The position numbers and the translations under genes are program-made. Positions 4,036 to 56,653 of a stretch of DNA of 56,653 nt are shown piece after piece (positions within the stretch are counted from its first letter, which is position 1; each line of letters starts with the position of its first letter). The notes beneath the pieces were generated by a model. That model was given only the letters and a program-made list of their open reading frames with translations. It was not told the origin of the DNA and made no database searches. Source of the stretch: Alloprevotella sp. oral taxon 473 str. F0040 (GTDB taxonomy: Bacteria > Bacteroidota > Bacteroidia > Bacteroidales > Bacteroidaceae); assembly GCF_000318095.2 (NCBI RefSeq), contig NZ_KB290710.1:86049-142701 (forward strand), read 5' to 3'.

Positions 4036-4200
4036 TCATTAAGTGCTTATTTAATAGAGAAAGCCTATGGACAGGTGTGGACCAATAGTCAACAATATGG
4101 TGCACTAGCGAAGGTGCTGGGCAAAGCCGTGCTCACTTTCCTCGTTGCGGAAGCCGTTGGCTTAGGTTGCTACGTCTTGTGGTTGAAGTTTATAGCCTAA
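4036..4200 (+). pseudogene. Possible C-terminal remnant of a membrane protein
   Basis: An open frame without a start codon runs into TAA at 4198. Its end is hydrophobic (ALAKVLGKAVLTFLVAEAV followed by GLGCYVLWLKFIA). It looks like the last ~50 residues of a membrane protein left behind when the exporter cluster decayed. The family is not recognised and this may be chance. Confidence 0.25.
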
Positions 4201-4274
4201 GCACTCTCGCTATAGATGACACCCAAGATGATGGCTTACGCAGCTGTTGCCCCACTCATCTAGCATCTCAAAAG

Positions 4275-4309
4275 AAAATCCCGCCACTCACAGTGAGAGG
4301 CGGGATTTT
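4275..4309. terminator. Bidirectional hairpin terminator
   Basis: AAAATCCCGCC (4275-4285) pairs with GGCGGGATTTT (4299-4309), with an inner CTCA/TGAG stem. It has an A-run on the left and a T-run on the right. It sits between the plus-strand remnant cluster and the end of the minus-strand protease gene at 4359, so it can serve both. Confidence 0.75.
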
Positions 4310-4358
4310 ACTATCCAGAGGGAGCGGTAAAAGTAGCTCCAACGAGGGACGAATAGGC

Positions 4359-6662
4359 TTATTGTCGCACCATCTTTTGGGCAATCTTTGCTCCTGAGGT
4401 GGAGACTTGCAGCACATACACACCAGGAGTGAAGCGGTCGGTGTCGATGTTCACTTCGTCACCTTGTGCGATGCTAGACAGTTGTTGGCGATAGAGGTTG
4501 CGACCATCGAGCGACGTCACCTCAATGGTGGCAAAGCGTTCGGGGTTGTTGAAGAGCACTTGCCATTGTGTTGCGGTGGTGTGGAAAGTGGCAGGGGCTG
4601 CACTGCCCGACACGCGCTCGATAGCGGTGAGCGGATCTTTACCAGCCTTTTTCAGCGCAAGTTTCAAGCCTTCATACACGTTGATCAATCCGTAACCATA
4701 GGTGGGTGTCCACTCTTTGCCAGCCATGTCTTCGTGTTTGGTAGAAGTAGCTTTGATGATATCCAATACATCGGTGTAGGAGAGTTGAGGATTGGCTTCG
4801 AGCCATAGGGCGATGCTACCCGCCACAAAAGGAGTCGCCATAGATGTTCCCTCTTGGTAGCCGTAGCGGTAAGTTTTGTTGTTCCACTTGCTAGAGTAGC
4901 TAGCCTCGTCTTGGTCAAAGTCAGGAGCATACTGGTTGAGCGCGCTCATGATATAAGAACCAGGAGCCAGTACGGCGGGCTTCGTGTAGTTGGCATTGAG
5001 CCATGGCCCATTGGAGGAGAAGGTGCTGCGTGTGCCTTCTTTTTCATCAGACTTAGCACCTTTGGGCACGTGGGTGGTGAAACTACCTACTGCGATGGCA
5101 GAAGGGATGGAGGCTGCACCTTCCCCCACGATGTAGAGATTGTCGGGCTTGATACTCTCGAGAGTAGAATTAGTGGCGAGTTCGGTGAACTCTGCAGAGT
5201 TGGGCGCATCGGCATAAATCCAGCCGTGGAGCGTGGCAGGTGTAGTGTTAGTTTTTTTTGCCGTAATCTCTAGACCAAAAATCACATCATCATATTTCTT
5301 GCCTATGTCTGCCAAGAGTTTGTTGATCTTTACGGCAACATAGTGGTATTCTCGCTTGTTGTTGGGATCAATACCCGTAAGGATTTGTCCCTCATCAAGA
5401 TATTTCTTCCAAAAATTTGCATTACGTTTGGTGATTTGTGGTTCTGCATCTTCGTCATCGTTGCCATTTTGAGTGAGGGCAAGGATGGGAGTAATGGTAA
5501 ATTGCTCAGTGGCGTTGGTGTCAATGCCCCAGAAATCAATATACGTGAGATCGTCTTCCGTGCCGTCTTGGTCTTTAAAGTAGTCCACAAAAAGATGTTT
5601 CGTCTCGCCAGGTTGGAAGGCAGAAGAAGCGTGGAGCAACTGATCTCCTTCGTTGCCCATGGCGGCTGTGATAATGCCCCCCTTGCCGCGCGCCATTTTG
5701 TCCATAGCTTGGTCGTAGTCGGTGCTACCATCGTGCGGGCCGATGACGCTACCCAAGCTCATGTTCACCACCCAAGGTTGCTGCTGTTTTTCGGCATATT
5801 CCTTAATCTTCTGCACGTCTTCGATGATTTCATCTTGTGCGAAGGCAGACGGAATCATGATGATGTCGGCGTTGGGAGCCACCCCATAATAAGGGTTGTT
5901 GCCGTGCTTTGAGCCTACGGCGATGTTGGTCACGTGTGTGCCGTGTCCGCTGCCCGTGTCGTAGGTGTCGTGGGTTTGTTTGCTAGCATCCACATCGAGA
6001 ATGGGAGCTGCCGTGCTTTGGAGATCCTTTTCATAGTCTTTCGAGCGGTCCCAAATCATTTTGGCTCGTGACTTGCCATCTTCTCCCATGAAGCCCATGT
6101 GCTTGAACTCAAAACTCTGATCGATGACACCCACGATGACTCCTTTACCTGTGAAGGGAGTGTAGAGGTTATCTTTTTGGTGCACGCGGTCCACGCCGGT
6201 GGCAGCGCGTGCCTTTGCGAGAAAAGGGCGCAAACGCTTTGAAGCGGTGAGTTGCACCACTCGCTGGTCTTCTACCAGGCGTGCCAGCCATTCGGGAGCC
6301 ACGCGCGCGGTCACGGTGGTTGCGCTGATGCGTGTGGCGTGCTGTCCTGCCTGTTGGAGCATCTCAGCTACATCTGTCGAAGCATTGGGCTGCGTGGTGA
6401 TGATGAGTGAGAGAGGAGCGAGGATGGATTGACGTGTGCCATTGTAGTTGATAGTGGGTGCAGCGAGTGAGTCGGCAGTAGTGAGCGCACCGCCAGCGCG
6501 TGTGGCGCGGTGGGAGAGGCCATAGGCTTCTTGTTGTCGCTGTACTGCGCGGAGTGTGCGATCGAGCTTGGCGTTGGAAGTAGTCTCTTGGTGTTGGGTG
6601 GTCTGTGCAGAGCTGGAGAGTGCGAGTGCGCAGAACACCACGGGGAGCATGTATTTCTTCAT
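4359..6662 (-). CDS. Secreted subtilisin-like serine protease (S8) with T9SS sorting domain
   Basis: 767 residues from the ATG at 6662, which begins a clean signal peptide ([20 protein letters not shown]); the frame is open further upstream but without a signal. The S8 triad is Asp181 (GVIDQSF), His240 (GSGHGTHV) and Ser607 (GTSMATPF), with oxyanion Asn337 (GNEG). A large insertion of about 190 residues lies between Asn337 and the Ser motif. The last ~85 residues form a T9SS type A C-terminal domain (NNPERFATIEVTSLDG, then PGVYVLQV and KMVRQ), so the protein should be exported across the outer membrane and anchored or released. A paralogue lies immediately upstream at 6872-9208. Confidence 0.92.
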   Translation of the reverse strand: MKKYMLPVVFCALALSSSAQTTQHQETTSNAKLDRTLRAVQRQQEAYGLSHRATRAGGALTTADSLAAPTINYNGTRQSILAPLSLIITTQPNASTDVAEMLQQAGQHATRISATTVTARVAPEWLARLVEDQRVVQLTASKRLRPFLAKARAATGVDRVHQKDNLYTPFTGKGVIVGVIDQSFEFKHMGFMGEDGKSRAKMIWDRSKDYEKDLQSTAAPILDVDASKQTHDTYDTGSGHGTHVTNIAVGSKHGNNPYYGVAPNADIIMIPSAFAQDEIIEDVQKIKEYAEKQQQPWVVNMSLGSVIGPHDGSTDYDQAMDKMARGKGGIITAAMGNEGDQLLHASSAFQPGETKHLFVDYFKDQDGTEDDLTYIDFWGIDTNATEQFTITPILALTQNGNDDEDAEPQITKRNANFWKKYLDEGQILTGIDPNNKREYHYVAVKINKLLADIGKKYDDVIFGLEITAKKTNTTPATLHGWIYADAPNSAEFTELATNSTLESIKPDNLYIVGEGAASIPSAIAVGSFTTHVPKGAKSDEKEGTRSTFSSNGPWLNANYTKPAVLAPGSYIMSALNQYAPDFDQDEASYSSKWNNKTYRYGYQEGTSMATPFVAGSIALWLEANPQLSYTDVLDIIKATSTKHEDMAGKEWTPTYGYGLINVYEGLKLALKKAGKDPLTAIERVSGSAAPATFHTTATQWQVLFNNPERFATIEVTSLDGRNLYRQQLSSIAQGDEVNIDTDRFTPGVYVLQVSTSGAKIAQKMVRQ

Positions 6663-6769
6663 GTGGAAGTCAGCGTTTAGTTGAGAAAAAGATCTGTTGA
6701 TGTGCAACCATTTTGCTGGAAAAGTGGGGCATGAGTAGCTGTCCAACAGACTTGGGCTGCGAATATACA

Positions 6770-6806
6770 AAAAACTGAGAATATCGTGCACGAATTCTCA
6801 GTTTTT
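6770..6806. terminator. Palindromic terminator between the two protease genes
   Basis: AAAAACTGAGAAT (6770-6782) pairs with ATTCTCAGTTTTT (6794-6806), and the loop contains the palindrome TCGTGCACGA. On the minus strand the T-run follows the stem, as expected for a terminator of the upstream protease gene (stop at 6872). Confidence 0.7.
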
Positions 6807-6871
6807 AGTGGTTAAAGAAGGACGGAATGCTCCAGAATGTGAGTTGCTGAAGTCCGAATCTTTGTTTGTGA

Positions 6872-9208
6872 TTAGTGATTCACTACCACTCTGTGGGTGA
6901 TTTGTGCACCCGGAGTGACGATGCGAAGGAGATAGACTCCTGAGGTGAGGGTGGTGAGATCGAAGGTTTCTTCATGACCTTGCGACACCTGTTGTAGGTT
7001 GCGTTGGAGAGCCACACGACCATCGAGGGCAACGACGGAAATTGTGGCAGAGCGTTCGGGATTGTTGAAGAGAATATTCCACACGCGACCATCCCCTTGA
7101 AGGGTGACAGGTTGAGTAGAGCCTGACACACGTTCGATAGAGGTGAGCGGATCTTTTCCTGCCTTCTGCAAAGCCAACTTCAGACCTTTATAGGCATCGA
7201 TGCGGCCATAGCCTGTTAGTTTATTCCAGTTGTTAGACTTTCCTGGGTATATTTTATAGGAAGTCTTGTCGATGATTTCTTCGATGTCATTATGATCCAA
7301 GTTGGGATTAGCCTCCAACCACAGTGCTATCACGCCCGACACGAAGGGAGCTGACATGGAAGTGCCTTGCATATCGGCATAGTAGTAGTCTTCGCCGTTG
7401 ACTTTCACCTTTTCAGATATCATCCAGAACTTTTCATCAAAGCCAGGATAGAGCTTGTTCATCGCACTGCACACTTGTGCGCCAGGACCGAGCACAGTGG
7501 GTTTCTTCACCTTATCATTGAGTACAGGGCCTATGCTGGAAAAATAGCTGCGCTGTCCGATGGCGTCTGGAAAATTGAAGCTCTTCTTGGTGATGGTGTT
7601 GGTGTGCGTGTTGCGACTAGTGTAGGCACCTACGGTAATAGCTGATGGGATGTTTCCTGCTGCATCCGCCACGGTGTAATTATTATCCCCTTTGAGGATT
7701 CGTTTGCTATCTATCTTTGGGATAGACTTCTTTACATAGGCTCCACGTTGTGATACCCAACCGTGCACCGTTTCTACTTGCACCTTGTCGGTGTTGGTTA
7801 ATTTCAGGCCAAAGAGGATGGTGGCATCGTTCTTCTCCAGACGGACTTGGGGGAGCTTAACCCAAAATTTGTGTTGGTGCTTATGAGTAAACTTGCTGCT
7901 TCCCGTGTGAAACCATGCATGGTCTTTCCAGAAGGCAGCATCCATGTATTCCACCTTGTTATTGATCAAGAGGAAAGGTTTCACTTCTAGGCGGTCTACC
8001 TTGTCAGTGCTCTGTGACCAAAGATCGAAGGTGAAAGTCTTAGACTTCTTTTGGTCATCGGTGAGCTTTTCGTAGTCTTTGTAATCAAAGAGGATGAAAC
8101 AAGAATCACTTGCAGGAATGTTGTGAGTGACGTGAATGTTCAAATCGCCATCATTGCCAGCTGATGCCACAAGAATGCCCCCTTTGTTTTTACCTACCAG
8201 TGACATGTTTTGGTCATAGCCTGTAGAGCCATCATGAGGGCCTTCTTGTGTGCCAAAACTCATGTTTACGACCCACGGCTTTTGGGCTTGCTTCGCTTTA
8301 TTGCGCACAAATTTCACGTCTTCCAAAACCTCTGAGTCGAGGAAGGTGGATGGAATCATGATGATGTCGGCTTCAGGGGCTACACCATATTGAGCATTGC
8401 CTACGTCGCTACCAGCGGCAATGCCAGTGGTGTGGGTGCCGTGACCTCCCGAACCGCGGTCTTGAAAGTCTGTACCCACGGGAATTTTGTCCGTCGCAGA
8501 TTTAGATTGGTTGGAAGTGGCTTGGGGAGAATAGCCTGAGCGATCCCAAAGCCATTTCACACGTGAGTTGCCGTTTTTGTCAAGGAAGGCCGCGTGGCGA
8601 AACTCAAAACTCTGGTCGATTACGGCGATGATGACGTCCTTTCCCTTGAAAGGAGTGTAGAGTTCTTTGGCTTCATGAATCTCGTCTACGTGTGACATTT
8701 TACGCGCTTCTTTCATGAAGGGGTATGCCCGTTGAGGCATCGCCATCTCCACCACCTCAGAAAGCTGAGCAACGGATTGAATTTGGGCAATAGGAATCTC
8801 TACCAAAAGGAAGTTCTCGGTGATTACGTTGGCTGTGCCACCGAGTTTCTGGACTTGCTGTGCCACCGCTTCAGCTTTGTTCTCTGTGGTATGGATATTG
8901 AACGCTACGGTGTTGAGCAATTGGAAATTGCCATCAGGAGTGGTTTGCTGCAGGGTAGCACTGTCGAGTTGGGCGGCTCCACGGGTGGCGATGAATTGCG
9001 TTGCCTGTTGATAGCCCTTTGCCAAGAGGGTGAGGGTTGCATCAAGTTTTGGCAGTGCCTCGTAAGGTGCGGTGAGTTGTGGAGTGTTTGTGCTGATTGT
9101 TGCACCTCGAGTGGGAGGTGCTGGTGTGGCAGGAACAAGGATGCGCGCTGAGACAGCAAGCGAAGAAGCAAGAAGAAGGCTGCTGACTAGGGGGAAAGAA
9201 CGCTTCAT
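6872..9208 (-). CDS. Secreted subtilisin-like serine protease (S8) with T9SS sorting domain, paralogue
   Basis: 778 residues from the ATG at 9208, chosen because it starts the signal peptide MKRSFPLVSSLLLASSLAV; an upstream in-frame ATG at 9247 would bury it. Asp198 (AVIDQSF), His256 (GGHGTHT), Asn352 (GNDG) and Ser617 (GTSMSAPF) complete the S8 site. Residues 60-160 form a prodomain-like region. The C-terminal ~85 residues are a T9SS type A sorting domain (NNPERSATISVVALDG, SGVYLLRI). The order of parts matches the protease at 4359-6662, and both share AGKDPLT and IERVSGS at the catalytic/CTD junction, indicating tandem duplication. A terminator-like stem with a T-run sits just before the start. 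Confidence 0.92.
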   Translation of the reverse strand: MKRSFPLVSSLLLASSLAVSARILVPATPAPPTRGATISTNTPQLTAPYEALPKLDATLTLLAKGYQQATQFIATRGAAQLDSATLQQTTPDGNFQLLNTVAFNIHTTENKAEAVAQQVQKLGGTANVITENFLLVEIPIAQIQSVAQLSEVVEMAMPQRAYPFMKEARKMSHVDEIHEAKELYTPFKGKDVIIAVIDQSFEFRHAAFLDKNGNSRVKWLWDRSGYSPQATSNQSKSATDKIPVGTDFQDRGSGGHGTHTTGIAAGSDVGNAQYGVAPEADIIMIPSTFLDSEVLEDVKFVRNKAKQAQKPWVVNMSFGTQEGPHDGSTGYDQNMSLVGKNKGGILVASAGNDGDLNIHVTHNIPASDSCFILFDYKDYEKLTDDQKKSKTFTFDLWSQSTDKVDRLEVKPFLLINNKVEYMDAAFWKDHAWFHTGSSKFTHKHQHKFWVKLPQVRLEKNDATILFGLKLTNTDKVQVETVHGWVSQRGAYVKKSIPKIDSKRILKGDNNYTVADAAGNIPSAITVGAYTSRNTHTNTITKKSFNFPDAIGQRSYFSSIGPVLNDKVKKPTVLGPGAQVCSAMNKLYPGFDEKFWMISEKVKVNGEDYYYADMQGTSMSAPFVSGVIALWLEANPNLDHNDIEEIIDKTSYKIYPGKSNNWNKLTGYGRIDAYKGLKLALQKAGKDPLTSIERVSGSTQPVTLQGDGRVWNILFNNPERSATISVVALDGRVALQRNLQQVSQGHEETFDLTTLTSGVYLLRIVTPGAQITHRVVVNH

Positions 9209-40542: not shown

Positions 40543-44568
<4,026 letters not shown>

Positions 44569-44665
44569 TCTTGTCCGATGTCAGAAGAAACAACGCTCTG
44601 CCTAGGTTTTTCCCTAGGAACTTACGTACGATGAAAATCTGACGTCTAAGATATAATACATTCCA

Positions 44666-44710
44666 GCAGTGAGATAGTCTTCGTTTGAAGAGCTATCTCA
44701 CTGCTTTTTT
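44666..44710 (+). terminator. Terminator of the beta-galactosidase gene
   Basis: GCAGTGAGATAGTCTTC (44666-44682) pairs with GAAGA-CTATCTCACTGC (44687-44704, one bulged G). It is followed by TTTTTT. It marks the left border of the restriction-modification island. If the hsdS segment were inverted, the new hsdS stop codon would lie inside this stem. Confidence 0.88.
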
Positions 44711-44758
44711 CGTGCCAGAATAAGACCTTCGGGACTTGCAAACTTTTTGGGATAATAC

Positions 44759-44776
44759 CGCTAAATCATAATTTAG
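44759..44776 (+). repeat. Inverted repeat, left arm of the hsdS switch
   Basis: CGCTAAATCATAATTTAG. It matches the reverse complement of 45442-45459 at 17 of 18 positions, 15 of them contiguous. It encodes N-H-N-L in the frame that continues into the plus-strand hsdS cassette, the same residues as in the minus-strand hsdS. Confidence 0.85.
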
Positions 44777-44781
44777 AGGCG

Positions 44782-45468
44782 ATGGCAAAGCAACTCTACG
44801 ACTATTGGTTCGTGCAGTTCGACTTTCCAGACGAAAACGGCAAGCCCTACAAAAGTAGCGGTGGAAAAATGGTGTGGAATGAGAAGCTGAAAAGGGAGAT
44901 TCCTGAAGGATGGTGTGTAGATGCGATAGGGAATATTCTAGACAAATATCCTACAACTAAAAGATACGAAACAAAAGAGTATTTGTCAATAGGAAAATAT
45001 CCGATAGTTGACCAAGGAGATGCTTATATTGTTGGTTTTACCAACGAAAACGATAACTTACTAAGCAGATACCCCGCAGTGCTATTCGGAGACCACTCTA
45101 CAAAAGTCAAACTACTTGACTTCCCTTTTGCGCGCGGCGCAGATGGTACACAGATTTTATACTCAAAATCTCCTTTGGTGAGCCAATACTATCTTTATTT
45201 GGTCGTTGCATCATTACAGATACCTAACCCAGGCTATTCAAGGCATTTTAAATACCTGAAAGAATTACCAATTGTAATTCCTTCCAAGAGTGTCATTAGC
45301 ACTTTTACGGCAAAAGTTAAACCTTTGTATATAGAAAAGAAAGAGAATATATTTGCCAATATAGCATTAACTAAGCAGCGCGACGAACTTCTCCCTCTCC
45401 TGATGAATGGACAGGTAGAAATCGGTGTCGAGCGTTCTCGACTAAATTATGATTTATCGAACGATTGA
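44782..45468 (+). CDS. hsdS: Silent C-terminal half of HsdS (second TRD cassette), inverted
   Basis: 228 residues. It starts in the middle of a specificity subunit: MAKQLYDYWFVQFDFPDENG is the central conserved region that normally follows LNRAINHNLEA, and that N-H-N-L-E-A is encoded just upstream from 44765 in the same frame. A target recognition domain follows (about 40-190), then the distal conserved helix (TKQRDELLPLLMNGQVEIG). It lacks the first TRD and has no promoter, because the beta-galactosidase terminator lies just upstream. It converges with and overlaps the minus-strand hsdS by 98 bases. It is best read as a stored half-gene that inversion between the 18-bp arms would fuse to hsdS. 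Confidence 0.85.
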   Translation: MAKQLYDYWFVQFDFPDENGKPYKSSGGKMVWNEKLKREIPEGWCVDAIGNILDKYPTTKRYETKEYLSIGKYPIVDQGDAYIVGFTNENDNLLSRYPAVLFGDHSTKVKLLDFPFARGADGTQILYSKSPLVSQYYLYLVVASLQIPNPGYSRHFKYLKELPIVIPSKSVISTFTAKVKPLYIEKKENIFANIALTKQRDELLPLLMNGQVEIGVERSRLNYDLSND

Positions 45469-45988
45469 GGGCTATTTTACGGTCAATATCAGATAAGAGT
45501 TGCCCTATCTTTTTTTGTTCAGGCAAAGGAGGAAGCCATACTGTGCAATCTTTTATTTTATCAGGAGAGGTATGCCTAATTTTTGTTTGTTGGGCGGCTG
45601 CACTTAGTTGTCGTTTCACCATATCAGAAGATATGAGATAATAGGCAAACCTTTTATCAAGGAGTTCTTCTTTGCAGGTAATTTTGGCTATATCCTGGCT
45701 TTGAATATATTTCCCGCTTTCAGGAATCCATGCGGTAGAACCGAGCAAACCTATAGCTTGTTCGGTTAGTGGAGTTATCAAATCTCCCTTTTCAAGCAGA
45801 AGTTCCTCCTTGAACTCTCCTGTATAAAAAAGATTGTCCTTAGAGGTATTCTGCTTAAAGCAGTTGTTGCGATAGTCAAAGTGCCCACAGGTCAGGCGAA
45901 TGTATTTGCCCGATGTTGCATAGAAATCACCACTAAGGCTTGCTCCTCTTGTTACCTCTATTAAATCTCCAAGTTTATATTTTCTCAT
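45371..45988 (-). CDS. hsdS: HsdS specificity subunit, one-TRD form in the present orientation
   Basis: 205 residues. The N-terminal TRD is at about 1-150 (MRKYKLGDLIEVTRGASL; CTVWLPPLPEQKKIG). The conserved coiled-coil helix QLLSDIDRKIALNRSINHNL follows (in part: DIDRKIALNR, about 165-175). After N-H-N-L (residue 182) the normal central region stops and the frame runs 23 residues into the antisense of the plus-strand cassette (VENARHRFLPVHSSG ...). A complete HsdS has two TRDs and about 400-450 residues; flipping 44759-45459 gives about 431. Half-S proteins can dimerise in some systems, so the present form may still be active with a symmetric target. Confidence 0.9.
   Translation of the reverse strand: MRKYKLGDLIEVTRGASLSGDFYATSGKYIRLTCGHFDYRNNCFKQNTSKDNLFYTGEFKEELLLEKGDLITPLTEQAIGLLGSTAWIPESGKYIQSQDIAKITCKEELLDKRFAYYLISSDMVKRQLSAAAQQTKIRHTSPDKIKDCTVWLPPLPEQKKIGQLLSDIDRKIALNRSINHNLVENARHRFLPVHSSGEGEVRRAA
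45442..45459 (-). repeat. Inverted repeat, right arm of the hsdS switch
   Basis: Minus-strand CGATAAATCATAATTTAG. The pair with 44759-44776 brackets 665 bases. It lies exactly where the hsdS reading frame leaves family-like sequence. Confidence 0.85.
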
Positions 45989-45999
45989 TACCGTTTTGA

Positions 46000-46782
46000 T
46001 TAAAAAGGAAGTTCGTCATCAGAAATCGTCTCAGACTTATTAACTGGTGGATAATTAGATTTATAGAAATTGAGAAGAAATAAACCAACAGTGGTTGTTG
46101 CATTGACGACAAAGTAAGCATATACTGCATCTTTAATCATTAAATCTCCATCAGTTTTTCCATGAAATTCTGTCTTATCGCTACGTAAACCCTCTATCGC
46201 TTTCCCTGCATTTATTAGAGAACAGGCTAAGGTCTTTATCTCTTTAGGGAGATCCCCATTACTCTGCAATCCGAATGCTTTGCAGATATTCCCAATGAGT
46301 TTTGTCAAGGTCTCGTTTTTACTCCATGTTACATTTATTCTTGAATCCTTTAGAATCTCCTTAATAATGCTTTCAAGGGCTGAATTTGCTAATCCGACAG
46401 CAAGGCTTGGATCTGTCTCTACATCTCTAAATGCCTTTTCAAAGGTTAGGCTTGCTGTTTCATAACTGGACTTTAATTCATTTTTGAAAGTTGGTATGCT
46501 TGGGATATAATCAGGAGTTTCTATCCCCAAATCAATTGCAATCTTCAGTAAGGTTCCGCCATCAACATTATGGAGTGTCTTAGTGGCATCTATTTTCTTT
46601 TTTGCCTCATCTTTATAATAAAACTGGAAGTTCTCCCAAAAATTATTCCACTCCTGTTCTTCTTTATGCCATTTGCTTAAATACGCTTCAACATCTTCAT
46701 AACTCTTGAATTGCTCAAATAAACTGGCATTTATCTTTTGAACAATATCCATTTGATATTTTGGAGAGATACTTTCAATCAT
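46000..46782 (-). CDS. Abortive-infection family protein (Abi_C domain)
   Basis: 260 residues. The N-terminal half is helical and charged, with no recognised fold. The C-terminal half carries the Abi_C pattern: SLAVGLANSALESIIKEIL (about 130-148), IGNICKAFGL, INAGKAIEGLRSDKTEFHGK (about 196-215, with the family LRN..HGK-like core) and a hydrophobic end (VNATTTVGLFLLNF). Such proteins are phage-exclusion effectors or partners. Its ATG overlaps the stop of the DUF1016 gene by 4 bases, and hsdS starts 11 bases after it, so it is translated as part of the restriction operon. It is visibly more A+T-rich than the core genes around the island. Confidence 0.75.
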   Translation of the reverse strand: MIESISPKYQMDIVQKINASLFEQFKSYEDVEAYLSKWHKEEQEWNNFWENFQFYYKDEAKKKIDATKTLHNVDGGTLLKIAIDLGIETPDYIPSIPTFKNELKSSYETASLTFEKAFRDVETDPSLAVGLANSALESIIKEILKDSRINVTWSKNETLTKLIGNICKAFGLQSNGDLPKEIKTLACSLINAGKAIEGLRSDKTEFHGKTDGDLMIKDAVYAYFVVNATTTVGLFLLNFYKSNYPPVNKSETISDDELPF

Positions 46783-47825
46783 AGCAATTTCTTTAATTCA
46801 TCAATACTTGGCAGAGCTTTACGCAGTTTCTCAGGCATTTCTGAGGAGGTCTTATAGGTTGCCACTCCCATAGGCTTGTCATATTGGCGCACCATATACT
46901 CTGCGTAGTTCTTGTTAGCACTTCTGCAAAGCACAATGCCTATGGTTGGATTTTCGTGTGGTTTCCGTATTTTGTCATCGGCAATGGCAAGATAGGCATT
47001 GAGTTGTCCAAGATAGGATGTTTTGAACTCACCTGTTTTCAGTTCAATAACGACCAAGGCGTTCAACTCTCGATTGAAGAAAACAAGATCGGGAAAATGT
47101 TCCACGCCATATATCTCCATCCGATATTGGTTGCCTACAAATGCAAAGTCGTGCCCAAAGGTCATAATGAACTTTTTGATATTGTGAACGATTTGCTGTT
47201 CCACCACTCGCTCGTCTATATCCGCGGCATCACGTTCTCCAATTTCCTCAATATTGATAAAGTTCAGCAGATACTCATCTTTGAACGCCATAACTGCCTT
47301 ACGTGCCAAATCACCTTTATTGATAGTGGCTGTAAAGTTGTTGGGGATGTCGGACTGATGGTGGTAGTCATCATTAGCCATCGCCTTCTTCAGCGTTTCT
47401 ACGGACATGTGCTCCTCGGCACAGCGATGGATATAGTACAAACGTTCATCAAGCAACTTAACTTTGGCAAGAATACGTGAGTGATGGGTGAATGGAACCC
47501 TGAAAAAATCGTCTATTGGGAAACCTGCCGAATTTGTGAATTGCAATTCACGAATTGGCAGTTGGAAATCTTCGGAATTGTCTAAATCGTGAATCGCAAT
47601 TAACGATTTATCCTTTTCTTCTTCGGCTTCCCAAGATGTAGCATCCAATTCTTTCCATTCTTCATAGAAGATACGCATTAGTTTAAGACTTTCTGGGGAA
47701 TATCCTCGCAGTCCTGGCAGTAATTGGCGCAATCGGGTACTTATAGCTTCCAATGCACCAGTTCCCCAAACGCCTTGTCGGGTGTTAGCCGAAACATATT
47801 TGCCCACACTGAAATAGGTTGCCAA
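46779..47825 (-). CDS. DUF1016 (YhcG-type) PDDEXK nuclease-domain protein, start uncertain
   Basis: At least 348 residues. The N-terminal helical part reads GVWGTGALEAISTRLRQLLP and GLRGYSPESLKLMRIFYEEW (typical DUF1016). The C-terminal PDDEXK nuclease has YGVEHFPDLVFFNRELNALV with Asp, and VVIELKTGEFK with Glu-x-Lys. The start is odd. Family-like codons (YEIAAEAIKSAILQGQYEAA) continue upstream to 47924, but there is no ATG/GTG/TTG between a TAA (47925-47927) and a TTG at 47825. The only nearby ATG (47931-47933) reads ATG GAG TAA in this frame. The gene may start at TTG, at a rare codon, or be damaged. It lies 9 bases after hsdM. Confidence 0.8.
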   Translation of the reverse strand: MATYFSVGKYVSANTRQGVWGTGALEAISTRLRQLLPGLRGYSPESLKLMRIFYEEWKELDATSWEAEEEKDKSLIAIHDLDNSEDFQLPIRELQFTNSAGFPIDDFFRVPFTHHSRILAKVKLLDERLYYIHRCAEEHMSVETLKKAMANDDYHHQSDIPNNFTATINKGDLARKAVMAFKDEYLLNFINIEEIGERDAADIDERVVEQQIVHNIKKFIMTFGHDFAFVGNQYRMEIYGVEHFPDLVFFNRELNALVVIELKTGEFKTSYLGQLNAYLAIADDKIRKPHENPTIGIVLCRSANKNYAEYMVRQYDKPMGVATYKTSSEMPEKLRKALPSIDELKKLL

Positions 47826-47941: not shown

Positions 47942-49579
47942 CTATTGGTTAAACTTCAAGCTATCAAGCTGGTGCATGATTTCCTCTTCGAGTCGATGAC
48001 TTTCTGCGAATTGTTCAGATAGCGTTTGTTTGAAGTTCGCCATACGAGCATTGAATTCCTCCTCGGTGATGTCCACATATTCGATTTTGATGTCGAAATA
48101 TTGTCCGGCAGAGAGGGAATTGCCTTTTTCTTTTATCTCATCGTAGCTTACGCACACGGAGAAGTCGTCGACAGCTTTGCGCTCGCGGAATGTAGACACG
48201 ATTTGTTCCACCTCGAAGTCTCGGAGACGCTTCTTCTGATTGTTTCCCTCCTTGTATTCCTCGCCCAACTTGCTTGCATCGATGAGGATTACCTTGTCGG
48301 TTGAAGCAGATTTGTCGAAGAAGAGCACAGACACATTGGTGCCCGTGGTGGCAAATACATTGCTAGGCATAGAGATGCAGCCATAAATCCAGCGTTCGTC
48401 CACTATTTTAGAGAGAATTTTCTTTTCGATGCCACTTTTGGAGGTGATGAATCCCGTAGGTACAACGATGGCGCCTTTGCCTGTAGATTTCAACGAGTTG
48501 AGCACGTGCTGAATGAAGCAAGTGTAGATGGCCATAGCTTCTTTCTTCTTGGCTGGCACATTGGGCACTCCCGCCCAGAAGCGCGCAGGTTGCGCTGCAA
48601 TCTTTTCACGCGTACCTGAAAAGTCGAATTTGAAAGGTGGATTGCTGACGACAAAGTCAAATTGTCGAAGACTTTGTTTGTCATCGCTTTTGTGGTAAGG
48701 CGAGGTGAGGGTGTCGCCTTGGATGGCATAGTCGAGAGAAGAGACCAAACCATTGAGTAGGAGGTTGAGTTTGAGCATCTTGTTGGAGCGCTGCGAAATG
48801 TCTTGTGAGAAGATGGTGCAGCGTTCCTCACCGATTTGGTGGCTCAGCGCCATGAGGAGTGTGCCTGTGCCTGCTGAGGGGTCGTAGCATTCTTGGCTGT
48901 GCAACTCAGGGGTGTCGCCCACCAGCAAGCGCGCCATGATGGTGGCAATGGCGTGTGGAGTGTAGTATTCGGCATATTTTCCTCCGCCTGCAGTGTTGTA
49001 GTCTTTGATGAGATATTCAAAAATCGAGGCAAAGAAGTCGTAGTGCTGCTCGAAGGCAGATTCGAAAGAAAAGTTGACGAGCTTATCGACTAGTGCACGA
49101 GCAAAAGGAGCGCGCTGTGCGGCATCAGTGACATAGTGGGTCAGTGGTTCGAAGAGTGGAATCTTGGTGTTCTCTGTGGTTTGCGTAGAGAAAATATCGG
49201 CATTTTTTTCTGCGATGTCCGTCATGGTGTTGTCGAAAATCGTGTCAAAATCCCCTTTCCCCTGTTGATTCCACAGATGAGCGATGAGGTGATAAGGCTC
49301 TAAGGTGGGCACCTCAGCAGGGAGTGCCCCTTGTAAGAGTAGTCTTTCCTCATCAGTGAGCTGAGCATAAGCCTCTTCCCATTTGGGAGCCTCTTTGATG
49401 CGTGGGGCTATGTCGCTAAACGCCCTTTTGATCTCAAAACCAAATTTGTCGTTGAGAAATTTGTAGAGAAACACCTGCGTGATGATTTTATATTCGTTGC
49501 CATCGTTGCCCATACCATAACTGGTGCAGGTGGCTTTGAGTTCATCAATGAGTTTGAGGGTTTGTTCTTTGATTGGCAT
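47942..49579 (-). CDS. hsdM: HsdM, type I DNA methyltransferase subunit
   Basis: 545 residues. The N-terminal HsdM helical domain (1-150) is followed by the SAM-dependent N6-adenine methylase with motif I DPSAGTG (233-239) and motif IV NPPF (313-316), both intact. YAEYYTPHAIATIMARLL (about 202-219) is the typical preceding block. The C-terminal helices (EEFNARMANFKQTLSEQFAE) would contact HsdS. It starts 3 bases after hsdR, so the two are translationally coupled. Confidence 0.96.
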   Translation of the reverse strand: MPIKEQTLKLIDELKATCTSYGMGNDGNEYKIITQVFLYKFLNDKFGFEIKRAFSDIAPRIKEAPKWEEAYAQLTDEERLLLQGALPAEVPTLEPYHLIAHLWNQQGKGDFDTIFDNTMTDIAEKNADIFSTQTTENTKIPLFEPLTHYVTDAAQRAPFARALVDKLVNFSFESAFEQHYDFFASIFEYLIKDYNTAGGGKYAEYYTPHAIATIMARLLVGDTPELHSQECYDPSAGTGTLLMALSHQIGEERCTIFSQDISQRSNKMLKLNLLLNGLVSSLDYAIQGDTLTSPYHKSDDKQSLRQFDFVVSNPPFKFDFSGTREKIAAQPARFWAGVPNVPAKKKEAMAIYTCFIQHVLNSLKSTGKGAIVVPTGFITSKSGIEKKILSKIVDERWIYGCISMPSNVFATTGTNVSVLFFDKSASTDKVILIDASKLGEEYKEGNNQKKRLRDFEVEQIVSTFRERKAVDDFSVCVSYDEIKEKGNSLSAGQYFDIKIEYVDITEEEFNARMANFKQTLSEQFAESHRLEEEIMHQLDSLKFNQ

Positions 49580-49582
49580 ATC

Positions 49583-52500
49583 TTAGGCGTTAGCGTAGGT
49601 GGCGTTGTATTGGTTGAGATATTGCTGCGCAATGCGATCTTTGATGAAATGATAGTCCGCAGTGTCAGGCTTGATTTGGGGTAAATGATAAAGACATCCT
49701 TGGATGAGTGAAAGCACCGTCTTCGTGAAAAAAGCATCTTTTTTGAGAATGTCATTCCTGTCGTAGACTTTCTTGTCGATGTCTTCTTTAATCATGCGTA
49801 GTATGACCATGATTTCTTCGTCTTTGAAGGAAAACATGGGTGGTTTATTTTCTGCTTCTCTTTGGTGATTCACCTCTCGGATGCGTTTGTGCACGCGAGC
49901 GAATTTGACATCTCCATCATATTTCTTCACTAAAGCATTGTTGCGTATGAAAATCACCTTTAGGCGTTTCATCACATCGTCTAGAGCCTTGGTTTCTTCG
50001 TTAAACTTCGCCACGGTGTCAATCACAAAGCCACGTTGTTTGAAACGTTCGGTGAAGGCATCGCGCAGAGTGATAAACTCTGGGTCGTCTTGGTCGAAGT
50101 TTTGGGTGAAAGCTGTGATGGTGCGTTGCCATTTCTCTTTCAATTCCATACCTCCAGCAATGAGCCGCAATTCCTCTTCTCCAATCTTTGAGAAGTTGAA
50201 CTCAATGTCTAGCATAGCTTCGTTGATGAGTAGCTTTGTTTCAGCGTTTATTTCGAAGGCTGCTTTCTGATTGATGATGTTGATGCGGTGCTGCACTTCG
50301 CTGAGGAGCTCAGGGAGTTTGGTGATTTCCACCTTGGCAAAGTCGTTGCGCATTTGGTCGTCTCCGAAGGTGCGCACAACGTTGGCCATGTTTTTGGCAG
50401 CGGTGAGGGCGTGTTTGAGTTCGAGTAGCGTTTCCTTGTCTTCTTCAGTGGAGATTTCAGCAGAGAAATCCTCCGCATTGTCGCACGAGTAGTTGAAGAG
50501 AGTTTGACGGATGTTTTTCATCTGTTCGATGATTTCCTCCTTGCTCTCCAGCACTTGAGCGAAAGTGTTCACATTAGTTGGTGCCTCGTCGTTGGATACC
50601 TCATTAAATCGGTTCAACTCTTTTAGGTACGCCTCATTGGTTTCATCGAAATTGCGTTTGATGTCTGCAAAGTCAATGAGAAATCCATAGCGCATTTGCT
50701 TGTAAGGGCGATTGACGCGCGTGATGGCTTGCAGCAGATTGTGGTCTTTGAGTTTACGACCGAAATACAAGCGTTTGAGTCGTGGTGCATCAAATCCGGT
50801 GAGGAGCATGTTGAAAACGATGAGCACATCTATGGTCATGTTTTTCTTGAAGTCCTTGACGATTTGTCGTCGTGTTTCTTTGTCCTCGTGGTCATGCAAG
50901 ATGAGTCCAGCTTTGAGGGAAGTGTCAGGACACACACTTTGACGGATTTGTTCGAAGTGTTCGTAGAGTTTCTCAGCCTGCGCACTTGTTTCGCAGATAA
51001 TCATACCACCTAGACTAGGGTCACCCTGAATCTTGCGAAATTTGACCAAATCGCTGATGATATATCGCAAGAGTTCATCCACATAGTTGTCATGCTCTAT
51101 AATCTGACTCTTGCGCACATCCTTTTTCTCTACGAGGGTTTCTAGTTTGTCTTGCACCTCCGTAAGTTTTTCCTTATAGGACGTTTCAATTTCCTCTCGC
51201 AGGATTTTGAGCGTATAGCCGTCGGCGATGGATCGGTCGTAGTAGTAGGTGTGAAGATAGTTGCCAAACACTTGGCACGAGGCTTGTTCCTCCTTGAGGA
51301 GGGGAGTGCCCGTGAGTGCAATTTTGATAGCATTTTGGTCTGCATCAAAAAGGTTGGCCAAGAAGCAGCCTCCAGGACGATAGCCTCGATGCGCTTCGTC
51401 GAGGATAAACACGCGTTGCAGGTTGGTGGCATAGGCATTGAGTTCCACACGCTCGGTGTCTTCTGCAAATCGTTGAATGTTGACCACGGTGATTTCTGCC
51501 TTTCCTTCAGCACCATGTTGAGCCTGGTTCTTTCGGAATTGTTCCATCAGTTCTTTGCGCGTGTTGGCGGTGTTCACCACCAATCCTCTGGCTTCAAACT
51601 CTTGGGTGGCTTGTTCTAGGAGATCAAGGCGGTCTACGATAAAATAAAACTTCGCCACTTTGTTTTGCCGAGCAAAGTAGTCGTTGAGCACATGCGTCAA
51701 GTGGTAGGATAAAGCCGTTTTGCCACTCCCTTGCGTGTGCCACACCACTCCTGAACGCACTCCTTCAGAGAGTTTGCGTTCTATCGCCATCGCTGCAAAG
51801 AGTTGCTGATAGCGCATGACATGTTTTTGGTCGTTCGACTCAATTTTTCCATCCACCTCGCGTTCCATTTTCACATAGGCAATGCCATAGCGCAAGATAT
51901 AGAGCAATCGTTCCGGACTGCACATGGAGGTCAATATGCGGTTGGTGGGTGTAAAGGCGGAAAGGTTCGTCTGATATTCCGGACTGGTGTGGATGACTTG
52001 GCAGTTATAATCCTTTAGAATCTGTTTTTCTGTTGCATCATCGATGGGTGCATAGGGATAATTCTTATGAAAAGGAGCCACTTTGTTGCCTTGAGGATTC
52101 TCTTCTCGGAAACAGTTGAAGGGTGCGCTTTTTCTTGCACTGGTGCAATAGAATGCTCCTTCCACTGGCACAACGCCTCCCATGGTGTCATATTCCATGT
52201 TGTTGGAGAAAATCATCAATTGGGTGATGTTGAGAAATCGGCGAAACCTCTTGTTGGGAAATCGCTCATTGTTCATGCGCAAACTTTCAGCCACTATTCC
52301 TCCAGCATTGTTGGGCTTTTTCACCTCCACGAAGCATAGCGGAAGCCCATTGACAAAGAGCGTGATGTCTGGGCGGAACTCGTCCTGACCATTTTTGCAC
52401 GTAAACTCCGCCGTAAAGTGAAAGACATTGTTAATAGGGTGGTCGAAGTCTATTAACTTGGTGGGAGAAATGGCTTTGAGCCTTTGATAAAATCCTCTTC

Positions 52501-52744
52501 CTAAGTCATCATCGTTGAGTTCTTTGCGGATGTACGATAGCATTTGCTCGAAGTTTCCAGCTTGTTCTGGATTAAGTCGGCAAAATTGTTCCTTAAATAC
52601 CTTAAGGAGAATATTCGTGTGTGGGTCATACACGCCATTGTGCGCATCTTCCTCATGGATTTTACCAAAATATTGGTAGCCCAGTCGGGTGAGATGCACC
52701 ATTGCTGGCATTTGTACGCGTGTTGCTTCGTTAAATGTACCCAT
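49583..52744 (-). CDS. hsdR: HsdR, type I restriction endonuclease/translocase subunit
   Basis: 1053 residues. The N-terminal PD-(D/E)xK nuclease has Asp126 (FRPDITLF) and Glu140-x-Lys142 (FVEVKK). The SF2 motor has Walker A GSGKT at 339-343, DEAH at 449-452, the later SAT-like ALTGTP motif and the GFDAPRLKRL helicase block near 670. The C-terminal helical domain binds HsdM. All catalytic motifs are intact, so restriction can be active if HsdS is. It is the first gene of the island, read leftward. A -7 box lies at 52872-52879. Confidence 0.96.
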   Translation of the reverse strand: MGTFNEATRVQMPAMVHLTRLGYQYFGKIHEEDAHNGVYDPHTNILLKVFKEQFCRLNPEQAGNFEQMLSYIRKELNDDDLGRGFYQRLKAISPTKLIDFDHPINNVFHFTAEFTCKNGQDEFRPDITLFVNGLPLCFVEVKKPNNAGGIVAESLRMNNERFPNKRFRRFLNITQLMIFSNNMEYDTMGGVVPVEGAFYCTSARKSAPFNCFREENPQGNKVAPFHKNYPYAPIDDATEKQILKDYNCQVIHTSPEYQTNLSAFTPTNRILTSMCSPERLLYILRYGIAYVKMEREVDGKIESNDQKHVMRYQQLFAAMAIERKLSEGVRSGVVWHTQGSGKTALSYHLTHVLNDYFARQNKVAKFYFIVDRLDLLEQATQEFEARGLVVNTANTRKELMEQFRKNQAQHGAEGKAEITVVNIQRFAEDTERVELNAYATNLQRVFILDEAHRGYRPGGCFLANLFDADQNAIKIALTGTPLLKEEQASCQVFGNYLHTYYYDRSIADGYTLKILREEIETSYKEKLTEVQDKLETLVEKKDVRKSQIIEHDNYVDELLRYIISDLVKFRKIQGDPSLGGMIICETSAQAEKLYEHFEQIRQSVCPDTSLKAGLILHDHEDKETRRQIVKDFKKNMTIDVLIVFNMLLTGFDAPRLKRLYFGRKLKDHNLLQAITRVNRPYKQMRYGFLIDFADIKRNFDETNEAYLKELNRFNEVSNDEAPTNVNTFAQVLESKEEIIEQMKNIRQTLFNYSCDNAEDFSAEISTEEDKETLLELKHALTAAKNMANVVRTFGDDQMRNDFAKVEITKLPELLSEVQHRINIINQKAAFEINAETKLLINEAMLDIEFNFSKIGEEELRLIAGGMELKEKWQRTITAFTQNFDQDDPEFITLRDAFTERFKQRGFVIDTVAKFNEETKALDDVMKRLKVIFIRNNALVKKYDGDVKFARVHKRIREVNHQREAENKPPMFSFKDEEIMVILRMIKEDIDKKVYDRNDILKKDAFFTKTVLSLIQGCLYHLPQIKPDTADYHFIKDRIAQQYLNQYNATYANA

Positions 52745-53997: not shown

Positions 53998-55059
53998 TTA
54001 GGCTTTTGCGGCGTCCCATCCTTGGGCTTTGAGGGCAAATTCGTTGCCATCGCGCGTGATGAGCTGTGTGCCTTCGGCAGCCGTCGTGATGTGACCGATG
54101 ATTTTGACATCGGGAAGGGCTTCTACACGCTCGTGGTCGGTGAGTGGTACGGTGAAGAGGAGTTCGTAGTCTTCACCTCCATTGAGGGCGCAGGTGGAAA
54201 CATTGAGATTGAATTGTTCGGCTGCGACTGCTGTTTGGTAGTCAATGGGGAGACGTTCCTCAAAGATGCGACAACCCACTTGACTTTCGTGGCAAATGTG
54301 AAGGAGTTCGCTGCTGATGCCATCGCTCACATCGATCATGGCTGTGGGATGGATGCCTGCTTGGCGAAGATTTTCGACCACATCGCGACGTGCCTCGGGC
54401 TTGAGCAAACGCTCGAGGAGATATTCCTGTCCAGAGAAGTCAGGTTGGAAATTGAGAGCATCGCGGGCTTCTTGCGATTTGGCAGCCTTCACCTGCGAGA
54501 GATAAATGGCTTTCTCGCGCTCCATGAGTTGGAGTCCCATATAGGCCGCTCCGAAGTTGCCCGAAACACAGACGAGGTCGGTGGGTTTTGCGCCTGAACG
54601 CTTGACGATGTCAGAGGGAGCAGCGGTGCCGATGGCCGTGATGCTGATGGCGATGCCGGTGAGGGAAGCTGAAGTGTCGCCTCCCACGAGGTCTACACCG
54701 TGACGTTCGCAGGCAAGTCGAAGGCCTGCGTAGAACTCATCGAGATCTTCCACTTGGAAGCGATTGCTCACCGCCAGCGAAACTAGGAGTTGACGGGGCG
54801 TGCCGTTCATGGCGTAGATGTCGGAGAGATTGACCATGGCGGCTTTGTAGCCCAGATGACGGAGTGGGGTGTAGACGAGGTCGAAGTGGATGCCCTCCAT
54901 GAGCATATCAGTGGTGACGAGGGTTTGTTCGCCTTCGGTGGCTCCGATGATGGCGCAGTCGTCGCCTACGCCCTGCAAGGTGCTGGGCTGAGTGGGCTTG
55001 ATGCCTTCGGTGAGGTGGCGAATAAGACCAAATTCGCCAAGAGAGGATATGGTGGACAT
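53998..55059 (-). CDS. thiL: Thiamine-monophosphate kinase
   Basis: 353 residues. ThiL blocks are EFGLIRHLTE (about 9-18), GVGDDCAII (about 30-38, ATP/Mg site), VTTDMLMEGIHFD (about 48-60), YKAAMVNLSDIYAMNG (about 70-85), DLVGGDTSAS (about 122) and MIDVSDGISSELLHI (about 240). It phosphorylates thiamine phosphate to the active cofactor thiamine diphosphate. It is close to full family length. Its upstream region is entirely occupied by the TTAGACG repeat structure at 55060-55299, so its promoter must lie in or beyond that repeat. Confidence 0.94.
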   Translation of the reverse strand: MSTISSLGEFGLIRHLTEGIKPTQPSTLQGVGDDCAIIGATEGEQTLVTTDMLMEGIHFDLVYTPLRHLGYKAAMVNLSDIYAMNGTPRQLLVSLAVSNRFQVEDLDEFYAGLRLACERHGVDLVGGDTSASLTGIAISITAIGTAAPSDIVKRSGAKPTDLVCVSGNFGAAYMGLQLMEREKAIYLSQVKAAKSQEARDALNFQPDFSGQEYLLERLLKPEARRDVVENLRQAGIHPTAMIDVSDGISSELLHICHESQVGCRIFEERLPIDYQTAVAAEQFNLNVSTCALNGGEDYELLFTVPLTDHERVEALPDVKIIGHITTAAEGTQLITRDGNEFALKAQGWDAAKA

Positions 55060-55299
55060 TAGCTATTAGACGTTAGAGGATAGACGTTAGACGTTAGAAG
55101 GTCGCGGACCCTTTCTATTCGCCACAATAAGTGTGGCTCGGGGGCATAGACGTTGGAGAATAGACGTTAGGTGTTAGACATTAGACTTTAGACATTTGAG
55201 GCTTGAGGGGCGCAGCCCCTTTTTCACTCGCCTCGAAGACATCAAAGAAGCGATAACGTCTAATGTCTACTCTCTAACGTCTAACCTCTAATTTCTATT
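55060..55299. repeat. TTAGACG heptamer inverted array with GC hairpin modules
   Basis: The left half carries many TTAGACG/TTAGAC-type heptamers in plus sense (55066-55200), and the right half carries TCTAACGTCTAA in minus sense (55254-55292). Between them are two related modules: GGTCGCGGACCCTTTCTATT (near 55099) and GGGGCGCAGCCCCTTTTTC (55207-55225), each followed by TCGCC. The second can form a GGGGC/GCCCC hairpin with a T-run. The repeat fills the whole gap between the outer-membrane barrel stop and the thiL start. Confidence 0.8.
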
Positions 55300-55782
55300 T
55301 TAGAAATAGAATCCTAGACCAATGCGCATGCCGATTTCACTGCCTTGGGTGAAGTCATTTACCGAGAGCTTGTAGAACACTTGTGGTTCGATGGCAATGT
55401 AGTGATTGAGATAGAAAGTATAGCCTATGTTGAAAGGAAGGCGGAGGTCATTGTGGTTGGGGCTACGGTGCATGTATTCGAGGCCTGTGCCGAGTGAAAT
55501 GCCGTTGGAGGAGAAGTAGTAGCGTAAACCAGCACCGAGAGTGATTTCGTTGTTGCGCTTACCGAAATGGTTAATCCCTGCTGAACCATGCACCATCCAA
55601 TTGTCTTCAAAGAAATAACCGCCTTCAGCGTTCATGCCGAGGCGAAGACCACCGCGATCGTTGTAGCTGAGACCGAAATTAGAGAGAGACGTATTGACAT
55701 ATCGGGTGTCTTGCTCAAACTGAGCACGAGCACCGATGGTGAAGCTCACGAGGAGAAGCAGGAGAGTAAAAAACTTTTTCAT
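55300..55782 (-). CDS. Small outer-membrane beta-barrel protein
   Basis: 160 residues. A signal peptide is cleaved near residue 20 (SFTIGARAQ). The remainder alternates in short amphipathic strands with Gly/Tyr turns (GGLRLGMNAEGGYFFEDN, LGAGLRYYFSSNGISLGTG) and ends in GLGFYF, an aromatic C terminus typical of barrels assembled by BamA. It resembles porin-family/OmpW-like eight-strand barrels. Function unknown. It sits between two TTAGACG repeat structures, together with the oxidoreductase gene upstream of it. Confidence 0.8.
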   Translation of the reverse strand: MKKFFTLLLLLVSFTIGARAQFEQDTRYVNTSLSNFGLSYNDRGGLRLGMNAEGGYFFEDNWMVHGSAGINHFGKRNNEITLGAGLRYYFSSNGISLGTGLEYMHRSPNHNDLRLPFNIGYTFYLNHYIAIEPQVFYKLSVNDFTQGSEIGMRIGLGFYF

Positions 55783-55827
55783 GAAATCTACGTTATAAGT
55801 TAGTGAGAATATGCTAACTATTGAATA

Positions 55828-56379
55828 TTAAAGTGTTGCGATAAGTGCTGTGAGACGTTGTACGTGGTCATCGGCTTTTGCCTTGAAGACTTCCGCTTGA
55901 CCAGGTTCATTGCGCATGGCGTAGGACACACTGCAGGTGTGCACCATGCCAGCGAACTCCATGCCAGTGAAACCTGCAGCAAACATCTGGGCAAACATAA
56001 GTTTGTCGAAGGCATTGCCGTTGGCATTGATATAGACTTCTTCGGGAGCCCCTACAGTGAAGGAGAGAATGAGCTTCTTCCCTTTGAGGGCTGTGCCTGT
56101 GGAACCATGAGAGAAACCATGGAGCCACACTTCTTCTATCCAGCGTTGGAGCAAACTGGGGATGCTAAACCAGAAAAGTGGGAATTGGAACACTACGATG
56201 TCGGCTTCGACAAGGCGTTGTTGTTCACGCGCCACATCAATAGGCTTATGGGTGTAGAGATCTGCTAGACGAACGATTTCAACTTCGGGAAGTGCGACAG
56301 AGAGGCGTTCGAGAATTTCATTATTAACAACGGAATCTTTGGGGTCGGTGTGACCGCTGATGACAAGTACTTTAGACAT
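55828..56379 (-). CDS. NAD(P)H-dependent oxidoreductase, flavodoxin-like fold
   Basis: 183 residues. The flavodoxin-fold N terminus is KVLVISGHTDPKDSVVN (about 3-19). FPLFWFSIPSLLQRWIEEVW (about 81-100) and the GKKLILSFTVGAPEE strand (about 113-127) are hallmarks of the quinone reductase/KefF-MdaB family. It would use FMN or FAD to reduce quinones with two electrons. It lies 45 bases upstream of the small barrel gene on the same strand. Its start codon falls in sequence that itself resembles the adjacent TTAGAC repeats. Confidence 0.9.
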   Translation of the reverse strand: MSKVLVISGHTDPKDSVVNNEILERLSVALPEVEIVRLADLYTHKPIDVAREQQRLVEADIVVFQFPLFWFSIPSLLQRWIEEVWLHGFSHGSTGTALKGKKLILSFTVGAPEEVYINANGNAFDKLMFAQMFAAGFTGMEFAGMVHTCSVSYAMRNEPGQAEVFKAKADDHVQRLTALIATL

Positions 56380-56384
56380 TGATT

Positions 56385-56653
56385 TTAGATGTTAAGCTCT
56401 AGACGTTAGCAATTAGACGTAAGAGATTAGACGTTAGACGTTAGAGGGGCGCAGACCCTTTCTGCTCGGCTTCGTCTACACTGCGTTTCGCTCGCCTCGG
56501 GCTCAGCTTAGACGTTAGCAATTAGACGTTAGCAATTAGACGTTAGCAATTAGATGTTAGCAATTAGACGTTAGACGGCTTTGCTGTTGTACATCTATTG
56601 CCGCACGGTTCTAAGGTAAACTCTCTAACGTCTAAAGTCTAATCTCTAACGTC
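56385..56653. repeat. Second TTAGACG array, runs off the window
   Basis: Heptamers TTAGACG/TTAGCAA are in plus sense from about 56395. A module GGGGCGCAGACCCTTTCTG lies near 56444, and four tandem 14-base units TTAGACGTTAGCAA lie at 56508-56563. Opposite-sense TCTAACGTCTAA copies are near the right edge (from about 56624). The layout equals that at 55060-55299, and the right arm is incomplete. Confidence 0.8.

Follow-up and report, generated by a model that had tools for sequence, protein, structure and literature searches.

The stretch of DNA analysed here, hereafter the window, comprises 56,653 nt of contig NZ_KB290710.1 of Alloprevotella sp. oral taxon 473 str. F0040 and carries a type I restriction-modification (R-M) operon, the specificity gene of which, hsdS, is split at a short inverted repeat. 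The locus is a reduced representative of a known kind, the phase-variable type I R-M loci. Quite probably it derives from an invertible specificity locus with four recombination sites that lost its recombinase gene when the DNA between sites 2 and 4 was excised, and it now stands in the orientation that encodes only half of the specificity subunit (half-S).

Split hsdS gene of the window

The arms of the inverted repeat (44759-44776 and 45442-45459) are 18 nt long, complementary at 17 of 18 positions (94%) and separated by 665 nt. On the minus strand, an open reading frame (ORF) at 45371-45988 encodes a 205-residue half-S protein, and its first 182 codons (45443-45988) are the N-terminal half of HsdS (N-half), that is, the first target recognition domain (TRD1) and the first part of the central conserved region, ending in N-H-N-L (Methylase_S in a profile search, E-value 8.6e-17; S subunit 1yf2 of PDB, E-value 2.6e-13). 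After N-H-N-L the frame departs from HsdS sequence and stops 23 codons past the site. On the plus strand, a frame entering from the other arm reads LNHNLEAMAKQLYDYWF and from N-H-N-L runs on as EAMAKQLYDYWF. This cassette (44776-45442, plus strand; present reading 44761-45468) encodes the C-terminal half (C-half) with the rest of the central region, TRD2 and the C-terminal conserved region. Its product is 74% identical over 226 residues to the C-half of a Bacteroides cutis locus (L028) and resembles HsdS of EcoR124II (7bst, E-value 1.8e-5), while Pfam gave no match to it even at an E-value of 10.

Inversion of 44777-45441 by script produced a single ORF of 431 residues encoding an HsdS with two TRDs, the last residues and stop codon (44693-44695) of which lie in 44693-44758 on the minus strand. 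A sequence-only reading had proposed that hsdS leaves the family sequence after N-H-N-L at a 17/18 inverted repeat, that the remainder lies on the opposite strand from the other repeat copy, and that inversion on paper joins the two into one frame of about 431 residues; the located arms, the frames and the scripted inversion bear this out. The locus thereby has the inverted repeats in hsdS, with another intact reading upon exchange, that mark inverting type I R-M systems. Duplicated distinct hsdS genes were not found at the locus, which holds one N-half and one C-half. Elsewhere in the 2.55-Mb draft genome, neither half recurs in the searches made: Methylase_S matched the N-half alone (the Pfam model misses C-halves), and a protein search with the C-half returned only the locus itself.

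Allowing up to two mismatches, the 18-mer of the repeat occurs at three places in the genome, namely both arms and one place with two mismatches on contig 14, and the reversed-pattern control gave none. When the window was resampled 40 times under a first-order Markov model, three of the resamples contained arms matching at 17 or more of 18 positions with 300-1500 nt between them, and the other such pairs in the window itself all fall within a repeat-rich stretch at 53.2-56.6 kb. The recurrence of the site at the same codons in related loci, described below, argues more strongly against chance than this resampling does.

A site family with locus-specific spacers

Related loci were chosen by their hsdM, the best 80 of 577 confirmed ones being retained, which together with the window makes 81. 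Downstream of hsdM the pattern TAAA[TC]NNNAATTTA (TAAAY-NNN-AATTTA) has 124 matches in 57 of the 81 loci, against 4.15 expected from mononucleotide shuffles; four of the 124 carry other spacers and are probably due to chance or unrelated. Usually one core is placed on the [I/L]-N-x-N-L codons of hsdS and a reversed copy lies beyond the 3' end of the cassette. The three central bases vary between loci (CAG, GAT, CGC, CGG, CAA, CAT). Within a locus, however, a single spacer is used throughout in 32 of the 33 loci with at least two sites, counting sites up to 7,000 nt from hsdM (L037 has two more CAG sites beyond this limit); the exception, L046, has one remote match. When the spacers were redistributed among the 32 loci, 1000 shuffles gave on average 8.2 and at most 15 uniform loci, kinship between loci not being removed.

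Some loci serve as controls. L086 encodes I-N-T-N-L-E by other codons and has no site, and the similar N-Q-K-L-E-A-M is without a site there in all eight Fibrobacteraceae loci. L076 has CAA where others have CAG, for the same residue. The window belongs to the site family: site 1 (core TAAATCATAATTTA, 45443-45456, minus strand, within arm 45442-45459) lies on the N-x-N-L codons and the lacZ-side site (the same core, 44762-44775, plus strand, within arm 44759-44776) beyond the 3' end of the cassette, in opposite orientation and with the same spacer. The two 14-bp cores are identical to each other and intact, and each hsdS half is an open frame. These features fit the site of a recombinase for which the spacers of partner sites may have to match. 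Among open-access papers the site-core strings had a single match, in a paper on porpoise microsatellites.

Both orientations among related loci

Orientation was called in 92 loci by reading across the first site on the plus strand downstream of hsdM; these were the 80, the window and 11 of 12 further regions (L142 had no hsdM match). Of these, 27 encoded a full-length HsdS and 26 a half, 11 ran into a contig end, 27 had no such site and one match was spurious. Among the half calls, L141 duplicates L028 and L138 duplicates L099 without a difference over 8,600 nt. L084 was miscalled, since its frame goes on into a C-half before it breaks; removal of the two duplicates and the miscall leaves 27 full and 23 half. 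Some of these loci show one site only on the sequence available, five of them half (L031, L066, L078, L095, L096) and five full (L038, L041, L046, L087, L102). The latter five have no recombinase downstream of hsdM in the sequence available and possibly represent a further, locked stage. The contigs of L026, L027, L030, L036, L040 and L080 end at an hsdS site or within about 140 nt of one, which would be expected if short-read assemblies break at invertible repeats.

One cassette of approximately 1.5 kb lies in opposite ways in L030 (uncultured Bacteroidales) and L032 (Hoylesella timonensis), with 95% identity over 1545 nt and the ends of the alignment at most 22 nt from the sites. The closest N-half relative found (80% amino acid identity), in genome G186, has the same YhcG and Abi_C genes upstream and is in the full orientation with a different cassette, while L028, which is related in both halves (77% for the N-half), is in the half-S orientation like the window. 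The genome sets hold one genome per species. Both orientations were seen across species only, and no near-identical genome pairs in opposite states were found. A comparison of related genomes, which had been suggested as a check, revealed both orientations, and the proposal that an invertible C-half cassette would toggle hsdS between half-S and a full two-TRD form is well supported by these relatives.

A four-site relative and the hybrid site

A second genome of the same genus, G003, contains a syntenic locus with 93.5% DNA identity over 5.3 kb of hsdR-hsdM and 81.7% over 7.0 kb on the lacZ side, where homology (44780-37848) starts at the site. Between hsdM and lacZ, G003 has four sites with the CAT spacer (orientations + - + -), two cassettes and, between the cassettes, a gene for a tyrosine recombinase, which is XerA-like and passes the cut-off of NCBIfam NF040815. 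The longest ORF of this gene (361 residues) overlaps site 3, but its relatives align from about residue 30, so that translation probably begins between sites 2 and 3. Like the window, G003 is in the half-S state, and 20 of the 23 tail residues are the same.

Site 1 of the window has both flanks of G003 site 1. The lacZ-side site, in contrast, combines the outer flank of G003 site 4 with the inner flank of G003 site 2, as expected for the product of a single exchange between the same-orientation sites 2 and 4. In agreement with such an excision, the conserved ends of the window cassette are 92-93% identical to those of the first G003 cassette. The one mismatched position of the arms is not in the core and G003 site 4 already shows it, so it is no sign of decay. 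A parallel is seen in the two-site loci L033 and L039, the last site of which has the same outer flank as in the four-site loci L029 and L032; the two loci also have flanks that align with L137.

In complete relatives, inversion between opposite sites would join the expressed N-half to a cassette, yielding a full HsdS, or leave half-S, and exchange between sites of the same orientation would excise the DNA between them. In the window lineage an exchange between sites 2 and 4 would have taken the recombinase gene, which presumably catalysed the inversions, together with site 3 and the second cassette; site 1, the 2/4 hybrid site and one cassette would remain. With two intact sites and one cassette, a flip would still be possible given a suitable enzyme, and the switch may be frozen or only rarely flipped in trans.

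Recombinase genes and number of sites

No recombinase was found in the window, whereas the syntenic G003 locus has the recombinase gene of an inverting type I R-M system. The window lies on contig 10 of the draft genome, and the six PF00589 matches of the genome lie on contigs 2, 14, 17 and 18; PF00239 serine recombinases number zero. An orthologue of the G003 recombinase was not found in the draft, which contains only weaker XerC/XerD-like and other tyrosine recombinases: the best-scoring matches, one XerC-like and one XerD-like, are 29-30% identical to the G003 enzyme, and three shorter ones are 33-42% identical over about 60 residues. The earlier statement that no invertase is nearby and that a trans-acting recombinase would be needed is correct as far as it reaches, but it omits the loss of the locus's own recombinase by excision between two of its sites, which the G003 comparison makes most likely.

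The number of sites and the presence of a recombinase go together. For 39 of the 80 loci the sequence extends 7,500 nt or more beyond hsdM. In these (six spacers counted; presence defined as tblastn E-value < 1e-10), a recombinase was present downstream of hsdM in 15/15 loci with three to four sites and in 0/6, 0/5 and 0/13 of those with two, one and no sites, respectively. With the window the two-site class becomes 0/7, and a split of 15/15 versus 0/7 would have a chance of about 6e-6 if the loci, which are related, were independent. L072 and L084, with four sites on shorter contigs, are outside this count, and the recombinase frame of L084 is short (165 residues).

Among 14 chosen genomes, the two-site genomes of L028, L051 and L055 have elsewhere a recombinase 38-60% identical to that of G003, whereas in those of L033, L039 and L043 it is matched at 29% only or, at E ≤ 1e-15, not at all; the window genome groups with the latter. 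Within the genus, a close relative of the G003 enzyme (E ≤ 1e-40) occurs in five of 58 genomes, G003 included. A quick tree was built from 42 of the 45 recombinase frames, two being excluded as short and one as a repeat, and the analyst assigned the labels "linked" and "other". It placed the 28 recombinases labelled hsdS-linked on one side of a branch with 99% support in the Shimodaira-Hasegawa-like approximate likelihood ratio test (SH-aLRT) and none of the six enzymes of the window genome inside, though many end branches are long and the placement is rough.

As a separate observation, the recombinase modules of L032 (Hoylesella timonensis; 4064-5409 from the hsdM end) and L037 (Bacteroides congonensis; 5765-7110) are 97.8% identical, compared to 90.8% for the hsdM 3' ends, which hints that the module moves separately. 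A scan of viral contigs for the C-half junction gave no matches.

Comparison with described systems

Phase-variable type I R-M systems (pv-RMS) have been reported in Prevotella intermedia and Porphyromonas gingivalis (PMC5690328). Inversions between hsdS genes have been reported (PMC5903667), and hCom2 inverton group 145 of gut bacteria comprises invertons directly overlapping subunit S genes (PMC11892184). Together with the inverting type I R-M systems of REBASE, these cases, Bacteroidales included, share with the window inverted repeats or inversions in hsdS. A REBASE screen deals with multi-hsdS loci, and the excerpts available give no account of a lone N-half that has one cassette and lacks a recombinase (PMC7394358).

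Spn556II/SpnD39III (cod/ivr) of Streptococcus pneumoniae is, similarly to the window locus, a type I R-M system with a short inverted repeat in hsdS (IR1, 15 bp), and excised, shortened forms of it, comparable to the reduced form of the window, have also been observed (PMC4948785; PMC12324116). Inversion at IR1 needs PsrA, a tyrosine recombinase encoded at the locus (PMC4948785). The pneumococcal locus differs in having three hsdS genes, repeats of three classes and a recombinase encoded on site, whereas the window has one N-half, one C-half, one site class and no recombinase. The closest precedent found for the probable deletion in the window lineage is pneumococcal tvr (SpnIV), in which a recombinase-bearing circle is excised between direct repeats and a shortened locus is left (PMC6265443). 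Unlike the window family, with one kind of site in both orientations, tvr shuffles by excision and reintegration and carries tvrAT (PMC6265443). No description of a two-site, recombinase-less hsdS remnant with hybrid site flanks was found in the open-access literature, covered mostly as titles and beginnings of abstracts.

An engineered half-HsdS can dimerise and form an active methyltransferase (PMC6158711). The half-S of the window differs from it by ending earlier, within the central conserved region, and by gaining 23 unrelated residues, so activity cannot be assumed. It may be altered in specificity or inactive, and in the latter case the present state would be the off state. The near-palindromic tvr motif had been considered as support for a working half-S and was dropped, because its authors traced it to another methyltransferase and called the locus inactive (PMC6265443).

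Alternative explanations

The most serious alternative, which we consider possible though clearly less probable than the loss described above, is a live two-state switch that another of the genome's recombinases (an XerC/XerD-like one, or one of the four other tyrosine recombinases) flips in trans, so that half-S and full cells coexist in a clone. The intact, identical cores, the open frames of both halves and the six tyrosine recombinases of the genome are compatible with it, as are the 38-60% identical enzymes elsewhere in the genomes of L028, L051 and L055. On the other hand, none of the six enzymes falls in the hsdS-linked clade of the rough tree and their similarity to the G003 enzyme is low. 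Arms of 18 bp are also short for homologous recombination. Still, pneumococcal spnIII recombines without all known site-specific recombinases (PMC6620402), and a missing gene is therefore no proof of a dead switch. That hsdS has simply decayed, a fixed chance or ancient inversion having left two dead halves, is very unlikely: it would explain the lack of an invertase nearby and the stop 23 codons after the site, but not the intact frames, a site at the same codons in dozens of loci with locus-specific spacers, or the four-site version with recombinase in G003, itself half-S with nearly the same tail.

The geometry of the hybrid flanks would equally fit the reverse reaction, in which the locus had two sites ancestrally and a circle inserted at the site brought the recombinase and the second cassette to G003. 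The excision and reintegration of the tvr circle provides a precedent for this direction, which is nevertheless unlikely, since three- to four-site loci with a recombinase are spread in this set over several Bacteroidota families and Bacillota, and loss is favoured over gain on that ground. Further points tell against a simple loss of the recombinase in the window lineage, besides the chance that G003 gained such a circle. The genome is a draft of 24 contigs with 96.7% completeness, and a recombinase may lie in a gap; the loci counted are mutually related and the counts not independent; and the L030 contig stops at the second site, so that the far flank of its reversed cassette is out of view. 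On the upstream side of site 1, the sequence of the window is like that of G186 and not that of G003 (82.7% DNA identity over 2708 nt covering the hsdM 3' end, YhcG, Abi_C and the N-half), which implies at least one horizontal exchange in the history of the locus. Ongoing switching in the window genome, represented by one assembly of one strain, is unproven and may have stopped. Taken with these reservations, the hybrid site and the association between sites and recombinase suggest that the locus has probably lost its own invertase.

Operon and genome context

The operon consists of hsdR, hsdM, genes for a YhcG-family nuclease and an Abi_C protein, and hsdS, as recognized in profile searches, and has the composition of a type I R-M system. 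All its genes are on the minus strand. hsdR (49583-52744; HSDR_N, E-value 6.2e-27) and hsdM (47942-49579; PF02384, E-value 1.7e-62) encode proteins 97% and 98% identical, respectively, to those of G003. Between hsdM and hsdS lie the gene for a YhcG/DUF1016 protein of the PDDEXK nuclease family (46779-47825; PF06250, E-value 4.9e-48, and PF17761; 92% identical in G186) and that for an Abi_C-domain protein (46000-46782; PF14355, E-value 4.2e-9; 84% identical in G186). The convergent lacZ-like gene (40591-44568, plus strand), named from the sequence reading, is the syntenic right boundary, and its counterpart at that position in G003 encodes a product of 85% amino acid identity. A terminator-like structure, a perfect 13-bp hairpin followed by a T run (44665-44705, plus strand), lies between lacZ and the site.

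The block from the hsdM 3' end to the hsdS site, including 46000-47825, shares the 82.7% DNA identity with G186, yet HsdM of G186 is only 55% identical, which suggests exchange of the block between R-M loci. At the window end upstream of hsdR, 55052-56653 is filled with dense imperfect repeats of 14-base period (TTAGACGTTAGACG-like) in both orientations, with many inverted-repeat pairs.

Implications for the switch

Any effect of the window locus on methylation or phage defence is unproven and may have ceased. A more speculative scheme, which we hold to be rather improbable, would treat the recombinase gene and the spare cassette as a circle that can be excised and inserted, with the N-x-N-L codons as its attachment site. 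Two-site loci would then be "empty", the spacer would set which circle fits which locus, and shedding of the circle would freeze specificity until a matching one returns.

Under the favoured explanation, loss of the recombinase by excision between sites 2 and 4, the same-genus pair with and without an invertase and the hybrid flanks of the junction would illustrate one way in which an epigenetic switch loses the enzyme that drives it. The link between site number and recombinase, and the locus-specific spacer, lead to directly testable claims, namely that excision occurs between sites of the same orientation and that spacers match between partner sites.
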